Source: Lentisphaerota bacterium (GTDB lineage: Bacteria > Verrucomicrobiota > Kiritimatiellia > RFP12 > JAAYNR01). Taken from it: a DNA stretch of 39,023 nt. Every line of letters starts with the position of its first letter. Positions within the stretch are counted from its first letter, which is position 1. The stretch lies in contig VGWG01000018.1 of the NCBI GenBank assembly GCA_016873675.1, forward strand, positions 1-39,023, written 5' to 3'. The notes under the pieces are model-generated. The model did not search any database. It was given only the letters and a program-made list of their open reading frames with translations, and was not told the origin of the DNA. This document shows, piece by piece, positions 11 through 39,023 of the stretch. Made by a program: the position numbers and the translations under genes.

Positions 11-422
11 TTTTTTCGGGGTGGGGGGGGGGGGTGGGGTGGGGATGGGGGGGGCGGTAGGTGCGGGTCTTGCGTTTGAACTGGAGGCTTTCGGCGCCGA
101 AGTTGATGAGGAGGCCGGTCTCGACACCGGTGGCGGTGAGGTAGTGAACGAGTTGCACCTCGTGGGCGGCGCACAGGTTCTGGACGGCCTTGTTCTCGAT
201 GAGAATGCGGTCTTCAATCAGCATGTCGGCAGAGAAGTCGCCGACGGGGATACCGTCGTAGGTGACTTGGATCGGATGCTCGCAGCAGGTTTTGAGGCCG
301 GCGCGTTGCAGCTCGTAGGCCAGTGCCTTCTGGTAGACGGACTCCAGAAAGCCGGGTCCGAGCGTCCGATGGACGGCCATTGCGCAGCCGATGATCCTCT
401 GCGTTAGCGCCTCGTCTTCCAT
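3..422 (-). CDS. GxxExxY family protein (PD-(D/E)XK nuclease-like fold)
   Basis: The 139-residue product carries the family signature at G24-FLE27-SVY30, followed by a D66 ... E76-N-K78 arrangement that resembles the metal-binding core of PD-(D/E)XK nucleases. The molecular role of the family is not established, so nuclease activity is only suggested by the motif. The conserved domain ends around residue 118. The remaining tail is rich in Pro and His (PHPHPTPPPHP) and is encoded by a C-rich simple sequence (a G tract on the plus strand), so it is probably a run-on beyond the usual C-terminus. The start is supported by AAAGGA about seven bases upstream of the ATG. The gene lies 110 bp downstream of the methyltransferase on the same strand, with a repeat hairpin between them. 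Confidence 0.85.
   Translation of the reverse strand: MEDEALTQRIIGCAMAVHRTLGPGFLESVYQKALAYELQRAGLKTCCEHPIQVTYDGIPVGDFSADMLIEDRILIENKAVQNLCAAHEVQLVHYLTATGVETGLLINFGAESLQFKRKTRTYRPPHPHPTPPPHPEKTC
23..54. repeat. Homopolymeric G tract, 12 G then G4-G4-G8
   Basis: Positions 23-34 are twelve consecutive G, followed by T-GGGG-T-GGGG-AT and then eight G at 47-54. The tract lies inside the 3' end of the GxxExxY reading frame. Such tracts are prone to slipped-strand mispairing and also to assembly or sequencing error. Confidence 0.8.
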
Positions 423-2840: not shown

Positions 2841-3878
2841 TTACTCTTCCGGAAGCGCTTCCGGCAGTGGCGTTGCACGCGCTTCCGGCCGGGGCGCCAG
2901 CAGGTTGGGGTCGAATTTGAATCCCAGGCACAGACCCAATTCGACCAGCTTGTCCTTGATCTCGTTCAGCGACTTCTTTCCGAAATTGCGATACTTCAGC
3001 ATGTCCGCCTCGGTCTTGCCCGCCAGCTCGCCCACGGAGGTGATGTTAGCGTTGTTCAGGCAGTTGGCGGCGCGGACGCTGAGTTCGATCTCGTTGACGC
3101 TCATGTTGAGGACTTTGCGCAGACGGTCGCGCTCCTCGTCGACCTTCCGCTCGGACTCCTCAAACTCGACGATTTCCTCGCTGTAGTCCACGAACACATC
3201 GAGGTGATGGCGCAGGATCGCGGCGGCGGTCTTCAGCGCCTCATCGGGGGCGACGCGGCCATCGGTCCAGATGTCGAGGACGAGCTTCTCGTAGTCGATC
3301 CGCTGGCCCACGCGGGTGTTCTCGACCGTGTAGTTGACGCGCGTCACGGGCGAGAAGATGCTGTCGATCGGAATGCGTCCGATCTCCTGTTCATCCTCCT
3401 TGTTCAACGCGGCCGGGAAGAAACCGCGGCCGGTGCGGATCTCGACCTCCATGTCGATTTCGCCGTCGCTGTCGAGCGTGGCGATGGGCTGTGTCGGATT
3501 GAGCACCTCGACGCTGTTGTCCACCTCGAAGTCACAGGCGGTGATGACGCACGGTCCTTTCCGGCGAAGGGCAATCCAGCGCGGCGCGCGGGTATAGCTC
3601 TTGAGCAGCACGCGCTTGAGGTTGAGGATGATATCGGTGACATCCTCGCTCACGCCCGGCAGCGCGCAGAACTCATGGCTGGCACCGCGAATGCGCACCG
3701 AGGTGATCGCCACACCCTCGATCGAGGAGAGCAGCACCCGGCGCAGCGCGTTGCCGACCGTACGGGCGTATCCCACCTCAAACGGCTCAGCCACAAAACG
3801 GGCGTACGTGGGGGTCTCGCCTTTTTCTTCCTTCAACACCCGCTTGGGTATTTCAAAACGACTCAAACGAATCGGCAT
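2841..3878 (-). CDS. rpoA: DNA-directed RNA polymerase subunit alpha
   Basis: This is the alpha subunit (345 residues), which nucleates polymerase assembly as a dimer. The N-terminal domain has the EVGYARTVGNALRRVLLSS dimerisation helix near residues 33-52. The C-terminal domain contains LSVRAANCLNNANI and KYRNFGKKSLNEIKDKL, the DNA- and activator-contacting part. I chose the ATG at 3878 (MPIRLSRFEIPKRV) because it has AAAGGA about eight bases upstream. An in-frame ATG 57 bases earlier would add a basic, non-homologous stretch. The Pro/Ala/Glu-rich C-terminal tail after residue 320 is not part of the fold. Confidence 0.97.
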   Translation of the reverse strand: MPIRLSRFEIPKRVLKEEKGETPTYARFVAEPFEVGYARTVGNALRRVLLSSIEGVAITSVRIRGASHEFCALPGVSEDVTDIILNLKRVLLKSYTRAPRWIALRRKGPCVITACDFEVDNSVEVLNPTQPIATLDSDGEIDMEVEIRTGRGFFPAALNKEDEQEIGRIPIDSIFSPVTRVNYTVENTRVGQRIDYEKLVLDIWTDGRVAPDEALKTAAAILRHHLDVFVDYSEEIVEFEESERKVDEERDRLRKVLNMSVNEIELSVRAANCLNNANITSVGELAGKTEADMLKYRNFGKKSLNEIKDKLVELGLCLGFKFDPNLLAPRPEARATPLPEALPEE

Positions 3879-32287: not shown

Positions 32288-33496
<1,209 letters not shown>

Positions 33497-33535
33497 GATT
33501 TTTCTCCTGTGTACTTCCCAAGCCGTTTTGCGAGC

Positions 33536-33611
33536 TGGAGCCCACGAGCGGGATTGAACCGCTGACCTCGTCCTTACCAAGGACGTGCTCTACCAACTGA
33601 GCTACGTGGGC
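33536..33611 (-). tRNA. trnT: tRNA-Thr (anticodon GGT)
   Basis: The minus strand folds into a 76-base tRNA with encoded CCA. The acceptor stem GCCCACG pairs with CGTGGGC, the anticodon loop is TTGGTAA, and the T arm contains GGTTCAATCC. The discriminator is U. It is the first gene after the minus-strand promoter and lies 39 bases upstream of tuf. Confidence 0.96.
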
Positions 33612-37227: not shown

Positions 37228-37281
37228 TGGTCGGGGCGGCGGGATTTGAACCCGCGACTTTCAGCGCCCAAGGCTGACGCG
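37228..37281 (-). pseudogene. 3' fragment of tRNA-Pro (TGG): probable attachment site
   Basis: The minus strand carries the 3' part of a tRNA-Pro: anticodon stem TCAGC/GCTGA with loop CTTGGGC (anticodon TGG), variable region, T arm CGGGTTCAAATCCCG, acceptor 3' strand CGCCCCG, A and CCA. The D arm and the 5' acceptor strand are missing. Identity appears to fade around tRNA position 22-23. The 3' end points left toward the chromosome and the missing 5' side faces the recombinase gene. This is what is expected of the attR of an element integrated into tRNA-Pro. Confidence 0.85.
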
Positions 37282-37431
37282 GAAACCGCAAAAACATTAA
37301 TAAAAATAACAAATAACACAACATATTAAAGATGTGTGTGTAGATGTGTGGTTTTTTTGCTTGCATTCTCTGGGAATTTCCGTCATTCTGTCACACGTCG
37401 CAACAAACAGGCGGCGGAAAGGCGGGGCGCC
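37282..37431. promoter_or_regulatory. AT-rich spacer with GATGTGTG repeats upstream of integrase
   Basis: The first 50 bases are strikingly A+T-rich for this genome. GATGTGTG occurs at 37331-37338 and again at 37343-37350, 12 bases apart. Short direct repeats beside an attachment site often serve as arm-type recombinase sites, but this role is only inferred. GGAAAGG and GGGGCG lie upstream of the integrase ATG. Confidence 0.4.
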
Positions 37432-39023
37432 ATGGGACTTGAGATCAGACGGGGGCGGGACGGGAAACTGCGGCGGTACTGGTACGGCCGTTATGACGTT
37501 GACGGCAAGACGACGGTGGTCAATCTCGGCGTGCTGATCAAGGGCACCCCGCCGCCGACCCTGAGAGAGACCGGCACGCGGTATTTTGAAGCGAGCAGGA
37601 TGAAGGCGGAGGCGGCGCTGGAAGTGGTGCGGAACGAGGCGCGGGAGAAAGGGAACGCCGAGCACTTGACCCGCCGCCTGATCGAAAGCAAGACTGGCCG
37701 GGCCGTGGAATATGTCCGCCTGGCTGACCTGGCCGACCGCTGGCGTAACCTGCCGAGGGAGTCGAAGCCGTGCGCGTCCTGGGCGGCGCAATGCGATACG
37801 GTCTTCAAGCGCTTTGCGGCTGCGGTCCGCTGCACCTTCCTGCACGAGGTGAGCCCGGAACAGGCCGCCGCCTATATCGCAGGGTTGCGTGAACATTACA
37901 CACGGCGTACGGCGCGGGGCGCGATTTTGCTGCTGCGCTCAGCCTTCGGCCGGCTGCTGCCGGCCGGGTGCGCCAACCCCTTTGAAGGTATTGTCAGCCG
38001 CAAGGGCGAAGACGAGGACGGTGACACGGTGCACCGCCGCCCCTTCACCGCCGAAGAACTGGCGCGGCTTTTCGATGCCGCGAGGCCCGATCCCTTCCTG
38101 TTCCCGCTGGTCGTGACCGCCGCCTGCACCGGGCTGCGCCGGGGCGACGTCTGCAGCCTGCCGTGGAAAGCGGTTGACTTGCGTGCGGGCACCGTGAACG
38201 TGAAGACGGCGAAGACCGGGGCGGGCGTCCAGATTCCGATCTTCCGCCCCCTGCGGGAAGTCTTCGAGGCGGCGCTCGCCGAACGCGCGGCGGGTGAGAC
38301 GTATGTTTTCCCAGAGGCGGCGCGGATGTACAAGAGCAACCGGGGCGGGTTGACATGGCGGTTCAAGAAACTGGTCACTTCGATCATGCCCGACACGGAG
38401 GACGGCGAACCCGCCGGGGACGCCGCCGTCTGCGTCGGGCGGGAGGGGCTGACCGAACGCCTGCCGGAGATCGAAGCGGCCGTGGCGGGGCGGTTCCGGC
38501 CCGAGATCGCGGTGCGGATCGCGGACACCGCGAGGCGCTACGCCGGGGGCGCTTCGATCCGGGATATCGAAAAGCAGACCGGCCGGGTAAGGTCGGGGGT
38601 TTCCGCGGACCTTCACGCCGCCGAGGATGCCATCGGGCTGCGCTTTCTGCCGACCGTCGGGGTGAAGGGGAGGGCGACAGGCGGAGGACATAAGGCGCGC
38701 ATCGCGCGACTGACGCGCACAAGTGCGTCTGGCCGGGTGCGAGCCGCCTCGATCATAGACTGGCACGCGCTGCGGGTGACGTGGGTGACATTGGCATTGT
38801 CGGCCGGCGTGCCTGTGGAGGTCGCCCGGTTGGTGACCGGCCACAAGACCGTCGAGATCGTGCTGCGGCACTACTTCAAGCCGGGCGCGGAGCACCTGCG
38901 GGCAGTCTTGGGCGACAAACTGCCTGCCGTCCTGACTGGCAACAACTCCCCCACCCCGCCCGCCCTTCCCGCCGGCGACAAACTGGGCGCGTTCCTGGCC
39001 GATCTGACCCCGGCCGAGCGCAA
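37432..39023 (+). CDS. Tyrosine recombinase/integrase with inserted HTH-like segment, 3' end outside window
   Basis: The frame is open for 530 codons to the window end. An N-terminal SAM-like core-binding domain spans about 95-180. Catalytic residues can be assigned: R236 (CTGLRRGD), K261 (TAKTG), H445 and R448 (HALR), H471 (TGHKT) and the nucleophile Y481 (RHYFKP). Between the lysine hairpin and HxxR there are about 110-120 extra residues (about 321-440), where most relatives have 20-30. Within them, GGASIRDIEKQTGRVRSGVS and ADLHAAEDAIG (372-402) read like a helix-turn-helix. A Pro-rich C-terminal extension follows Y481. The position next to a tRNA-Pro fragment indicates it integrates the element on its right. 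Confidence 0.9.
   Translation, partial: MGLEIRRGRDGKLRRYWYGRYDVDGKTTVVNLGVLIKGTPPPTLRETGTRYFEASRMKAEAALEVVRNEAREKGNAEHLTRRLIESKTGRAVEYVRLADLADRWRNLPRESKPCASWAAQCDTVFKRFAAAVRCTFLHEVSPEQAAAYIAGLREHYTRRTARGAILLLRSAFGRLLPAGCANPFEGIVSRKGEDEDGDTVHRRPFTAEELARLFDAARPDPFLFPLVVTAACTGLRRGDVCSLPWKAVDLRAGTVNVKTAKTGAGVQIPIFRPLREVFEAALAERAAGETYVFPEAARMYKSNRGGLTWRFKKLVTSIMPDTEDGEPAGDAAVCVGREGLTERLPEIEAAVAGRFRPEIAVRIADTARRYAGGASIRDIEKQTGRVRSGVSADLHAAEDAIGLRFLPTVGVKGRATGGGHKARIARLTRTSASGRVRAASIIDWHALRVTWVTLALSAGVPVEVARLVTGHKTVEIVLRHYFKPGAEHLRAVLGDKLPAVLTGNNSPTPPALPAGDKLGAFLADLTPAER

Follow-up and report, generated by a model that had tools for sequence, protein, structure and literature searches.

The tyrosine integrase gene at the right end of the window (the whole stretch of 39,023 nucleotides that was analysed) encodes an extra domain, predicted to be a folded helix-turn-helix (HTH), inside its catalytic domain. 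Such an add-on within the catalytic domain of a tyrosine integrase is apparently undescribed. Compared across homologues, it is an optional, inherited cassette, and it may well act as an auxiliary reader of the DNA just outside the core half-sites.

The gene runs as one uninterrupted frame from 37432 to 39023 on the plus strand with no internal stop codon. As the window is the entire contig C18, part of a draft genome of 3.17 Mb, and the frame runs off its end, the C-terminus of the protein is absent; a second copy on contig C99, 83% identical, extends 9 residues further. The protein belongs to the tyrosine recombinase superfamily according to its residues, fold and sequence profile. The six catalytic positions R236, K261, H445, R448, H471 and Y481 are all present and invariant over 44 homologues, which bears out the full catalytic set noted in the first-pass annotation. 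Matches were obtained with Pfam Phage_integrase (E 2e-13) and with PHROG_1, phage integrases (E 1.5e-37), XerA and lambda Int appeared among the PDB profile matches, and Foldseek aligned the whole-protein model with 1z1b (E 2e-8) and matched lambda Int and Tn1549 Int. The AlphaFold2 model, for which the window protein was aligned with related loci, has a mean pLDDT of 87 over the whole integrase. The window protein is a complex tyrosine integrase with N-terminal arm-binding-like, core-binding and catalytic domains, of which the first is a putative assignment via the AB domains of complex tyrosine recombinases, the N-terminus giving no profile match to any named AB domain. The features of the gene are:

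37432..39023, plus strand: tyrosine integrase gene, 530 codons present
37432..37656, plus strand: N-terminal arm-binding-like domain, residues 1-75 (AlphaFold strands 16-23 and 26-35, helix 50-72)
37720..37992, plus strand: core-binding helical domain, residues 97-187 (AlphaFold; lambda Int, Tn1549 Int and Xer proteins match in sequence and fold)
38137, 38212, 38764, 38773, 38842 and 38872, plus strand: catalytic codons R236, K261, H445, R448, H471 and Y481, from the 44-homologue comparison
38386..38727, plus strand: insertion zone, residues 319-432, absent from insert-less relatives
38437..38640, plus strand: inserted helical HTH domain, residues 336-403 (about 68)
residues 337-354, 357-371, 376-383 and 387-401, plus strand: helices of the HTH domain in the AlphaFold model
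38557..38634, plus strand: HTH motif proper, residues 376-401 (AlphaFold; conservation in members)
residues 387-401, plus strand: putative recognition helix, signature [RK]-[GSA]-x-[VI]-S-x-D-L

The insert is located between the post-beta-hairpin helix and the helix carrying HxxR. K261 and H445 are 184 positions apart (183 residues between them). Other full-length relatives with the insert space these two residues by 166-199 positions, and L099, L030 and L088, close relatives without it, by 75-87, which leaves an excess of about 100 residues. The distance of about 110-120 residues initially given between the lysine and HxxR was too short for this spacing, but suits the length of the insert. 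Structure prediction, proposed at first reading as the check for disorder, revealed an ordered insert with a pLDDT of 91-98 over residues ~336-403, flanked by low confidence at residues 327-330 and 410-417, suggesting a folded domain on flexible linkers. When the insert was modelled by itself, essentially the same helices were obtained as within the full protein. The HTH read from the sequence at residues 372-402 coincides with the AlphaFold helices 376-383 and 387-401, with a weak Pfam HTH_58 match under the family cut-off (E 0.0022). The PDB profile matches of the insert were HTH proteins (2lvs, E 1.5e-6), and weak profile matches to HTH_58, HTH_23, sigma70 region 4 and the resolvase HTH were scattered across the members. 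Foldseek retrieved HTHs of the RcsB/LuxR type, of KorA and of sigmaE region 4 as local matches, none with E<=0.001, the best superposing at 0.6-1.6 A over 42-51 columns. The fold predicted for the insert is that of a helical HTH; its location within the catalytic domain is confirmed by the model and common to a family of homologues.

A single-sequence search of genome contigs gave no match, and an alignment query yielded 66 loci from 84,980 species genomes, the majority being full or partial insert-containing homologues from metagenome-assembled genomes of PVC bacteria (Kiritimatiellae, Verrucomicrobia, Lentisphaerae and others). The survey of homologues suggested at the outset uncovered the insert at an identical, in-frame position in over 50 relatives assembled independently of one another, together with sister integrases lacking it. 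It is also present in L146, from a 51-kb viral contig, and absent from the close relatives L086, L088, L030 and the viral contig L099 as well as from the more distant L090-L098. Two types of match were found in 288 genomes of the window's class: an insert-less type matching in one piece, with ORFs mostly of about 410-520 aa, and an insert-containing type with longer ORFs, in which the match stops at profile position ~323. In a phylum sample of 289 genomes, the insert-containing profile was matched over its full length in the window's class only, matches outside it ending at position ~330-338. In phage and plasmid collections, coverage of the query stayed below 40%, and the best 50 Foldseek matches in the PDB and viral models were ordinary integrases, none of them seen with such an insert; the DS6A phage integrase (528 aa) is a possible parallel. 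On a FastTree phylogeny of 103 sequences, whose weak root support (0.71) bears on gain versus loss, the presence of the insert requires 5 Fitch changes, and sisters with and without it stand side by side, such as L165 next to L134/L136 with a support of 0.99. Judged from these sequences, the insert is an accessory module, inherited yet optional. In addition, a separate second C-terminal integrase fragment (profile positions 428-541) was observed in L074:9613-9966, at or just past where the complete integrase ends.

Variation among tyrosine recombinases is usually greatest at the N-terminus, while here a removable, putatively DNA-binding module sits within the catalytic domain. Lambda Int, Tn916/Tn1549 Int and the PHROG 1 integrases resemble the window protein in domain order, the RKHRH-Y residues, arm-like repeats, the core site and an Xis-like partner, but lambda Int and Tn916/Tn1549 Int lack the folded HTH between the post-hairpin helix and HxxR. 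The insertion of integron integrases is a small added element. Catalytic-domain insertions described previously comprise those of integron integrases, the beta strands of IntTn916/IntBPP-1, two strands in lambda, and Arch2 (Smyshlyaev 2021, PMC8138268), which are likewise lineage-specific within the catalytic fold and in some cases shape the DNA substrate; these are beta-strand or short insertions, whereas that of the window is an independent domain of ~68 residues. An HTH domain is not among the insertions of PMC8138268, and the term 'helix-turn-helix' is absent from its main text. The initial impression of an undescribed architecture thus held in the literature searched, mostly outside subscription journals, where no description was found.

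The integrase gene adjoins a partial tRNA gene, which serves as the int-proximal attachment site:

37228..37277, minus strand: 3' half of tRNA-Pro(UGG), from anticodon stem-loop to CCA
37266-37272, minus strand: anticodon loop of tRNA-Pro, the probable 7-bp overlap

ARAGORN found no intact tRNA at 37228-37277. Upstream of int, a tRNA 3' half or a whole tRNA (T-arm/acceptor end) was found in 50 of 57 loci, the T-arm usually lying 140-250 bp from the int ATG and antisense to int; the antisense cases are mostly 3' halves spanning the anticodon stem-loop to CCA. Strand exchange would take place at the anticodon loop. The isotypes used include Pro (three anticodons), Met, Val, Gly, Ala, Asn, Asp and His. 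Even the two copies of the same genome differ, the window copy lying at tRNA-Pro(UGG) and the C99 copy at tRNA-Met (L031:2641-2692); the intact tRNA-Met of the latter is at C35:1096-1172, with a 52-bp match at 96%, and for the window site, this draft genome yielded no intact tRNA-Pro(UGG) counterpart. None of the integrase domains correlated with the tRNA sequence of the anticodon region (partial r -0.02 to 0.06), so that isotype switching looks free, and the idea that the HTH sets the tRNA isotype was rejected. Tandem partial tRNA-Met att copies upstream of int were noticed in L055 (2-142 and 434-495) and L086 (about 3730-3800), which suggests repeated integration at one tRNA gene.

The insert-less sisters (L030, L099, L113-L133, L149-L168) are homologous elsewhere along the protein and have equal tRNA placement and ~12-bp repeats, differing in the absence of the HTH and of a conserved GGT at -14 (4/12). 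Since these sisters likewise adjoin tRNAs, a need for the HTH in tRNA targeting was rejected as well, and because they possess both placement and repeats, the HTH is not the creator of either; by this comparison it appears unnecessary for tRNA targeting or arm-site organisation. One att feature does track the HTH within the main clade, namely a GGT near -14, about 14 bp from the inferred overlap:

37284..37287, minus strand: GGTT at -15..-12 from the anticodon loop, on the element side, resembling D-loop G18G19

The G at -14 is found in 31/37 members of the main HTH clade, 4/12 insert-less members and 2/6 other (basal) HTH members, in a GGT context, and the T at -12 in 29 of the 37; in attB, the GG of the tRNA D-loop occupies the same place. 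The association of G-14 with the insert gives a Fisher p of 0.0019, ignoring phylogeny and for a position picked after inspection, and its confinement to the main clade could make it a property of the clade instead of the HTH. Beyond the GGT, the element side of HTH-clade loci displays an AT-rich pattern from -32 to -18, roughly ATTATTGGNNTTTTT, perhaps a bend or host-factor site.

The reading favoured here, to which we give about an even chance, is that the HTH is an auxiliary reader of DNA just outside the core half-sites. The inserted HTH would contact DNA 12-15 bp from the overlap, at the place of the D-loop GG in attB and of its GGT mimic in the element, and such contacts would steady the protein on core sites of weak conservation. 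Helix J of Cre sits in the DNA major groove. By analogy, the insert would emerge after the helix J equivalent, making contacts 12-18 bp from the overlap sterically reasonable. An extension of this proposal, which we consider unlikely, is that the HTH makes the family a tRNA generalist by reading landmarks that every tRNA gene shares beside the anticodon-loop core, the D-loop GG on one side and possibly the T-loop GGTTC box on the other, with very similar integrases, such as the tRNA-Pro and tRNA-Met copies of this genome, swapping tRNAs freely.

Between att and int lie two further features:

37329..37352, plus strand: two direct repeats spaced by ~12 bp, AAGATGTGTGTG / TAGATGTGTGGT, putative arm-type integrase sites
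37361..37389, plus strand: weak int promoter-like region TTGCAT ... CATTCT adjoining the arm repeats, tentative

Paired ~12-bp direct repeats occupy this interval in the relatives too, with a sequence that differs by member (GTGGGTGC, GTGTGTCC, GTGCCCCC), and 12 was the best repeat spacing in 26/59 insert-containing and 23/33 insert-less loci; shuffled sequences gave 8% and 10%. The repeats are probable arm sites, which the N-terminal domain would bind. In L034:14100-14450 and L077:15600-15800, an arm-like repeat (TTTGTGTGA, TTCCAAC) was far commoner at the far than at the int-proximal end of the element. A possible but clearly less probable role for the HTH is that of a second arm-site or operator binder on the ~12-bp repeats, aiding the intasome and repressing the int promoter, which would agree with the location of the repeats between att and the start of int. 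In partial Mantel tests ignoring phylogeny, arm-motif distance follows HTH distance when the catalytic domain is controlled for (r 0.33, p 0.001) and likewise with the N-terminal domain as the control (r 0.23, p 0.003), but the divergence of the motif tracks the HTH and the N-terminal domain alike (partial r 0.33 and 0.34). The insert-less sisters carry equal repeats at equal spacing and position, and an arm-binding-like N-terminal domain is already there, so arm-site recognition by the HTH is unsupported as put in the first-pass annotation.

The promoter-like region was found by eye at similar places in relatives, and the consensus promoter scan did not score it on the plus strand at 37361..37389. 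An int promoter overlapping att is common among tRNA-associated integrases, most int genes with such a layout being predicted to be autoregulated, as confirmed for several E. coli genes (Panis 2010, PMC2951348). On the analogy of these int/att layout findings, int is likely autoregulated here with or without the HTH; the autoregulation proposed earlier is plausible, but the HTH is unnecessary for it, as insert-less relatives have an equal layout.

The window int probably belongs to a small integrative element resembling phage satellites, which the contig end cuts short. Direct repeats of the tRNA end bound complete elements of 6.5-9.4 kb in L048, L034, L044, L068 and L077, the far copy running into tRNA sequence missing from the near copy (intactness of the far tRNA judged by eye). 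L034 and L048 (6.5-6.7 kb) encode int, an HTH_17/excisionase-like protein, a D5-type primase or DnaB-like helicase and the terminase small subunit, a gene content matching that of PICI-like phage satellites (int, xis, a replication gene, terS and att repeats). Other members depart from this plan, L044 having a primase and no recognised terS, and L068 having a piece of a capsid gene. PICI-like satellites are induced and packaged by a helper phage; L034 and L048 resemble them in gene layout. No literature linking Kiritimatiellota, integrase and satellite was found.

An HTH_17/Xis-like gene follows int in C99, L034, L048 and L068 (by eye in C99 and L068), which would suit the notion of the HTH-fold insert as a module for protein contacts, with an intasome subunit or the Xis-like HTH_17 protein, and no reader of DNA. 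HTH folds occasionally serve protein contacts, and it is compatible with such a module that the linkers are flexible and that the HTH carries little net positive charge. Yet position 387 is R or K in 44/49 members and 47/49 keep S391, both where the putative recognition helix begins, a pattern shared with DNA-binding HTHs, and we regard this notion as rather unlikely.

The HTH core columns are free of gaps in 49 diverse members, with G373, I379, S391 and L394 the steadiest of the HTH positions listed. Mean pairwise identity is 29% in the HTH core, close to the 30% of the core-binding domain, and 13-20% in the linkers; the gapless core and its identity near that of the core-binding domain suggest purifying selection. 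That the insert has no specific role, as an expendable spacer or a remnant, is thus very improbable, despite its repeated presence and absence on the tree and the poor conservation of the linkers. An assembly or frame artefact, conceivable for a gene at a contig end and raised at first as a fusion or misassembly, is refuted by the in-frame insert in the more than 50 homologous assemblies and the C99 copy, and as sister integrases lack what these homologues carry, the cassette is real.

The natural relatives with and without the insert at equivalent att sites offer a ready system in which to study how target choice might be altered with the active site untouched, and the 83%-identical pair at two tRNA genes of one genome renders the switching of tRNA targets directly testable. 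In PVC bacteria, the insert also marks what appear to be small satellite-like elements integrated at tRNA genes.

Elsewhere in the window, the elongation factor Tu ORF at 32288-33580 (minus strand) has an unusual switch-I stretch, presumably departing from the usual ERGITI-type motif, and may represent either a diverged EF-Tu or an additional copy.
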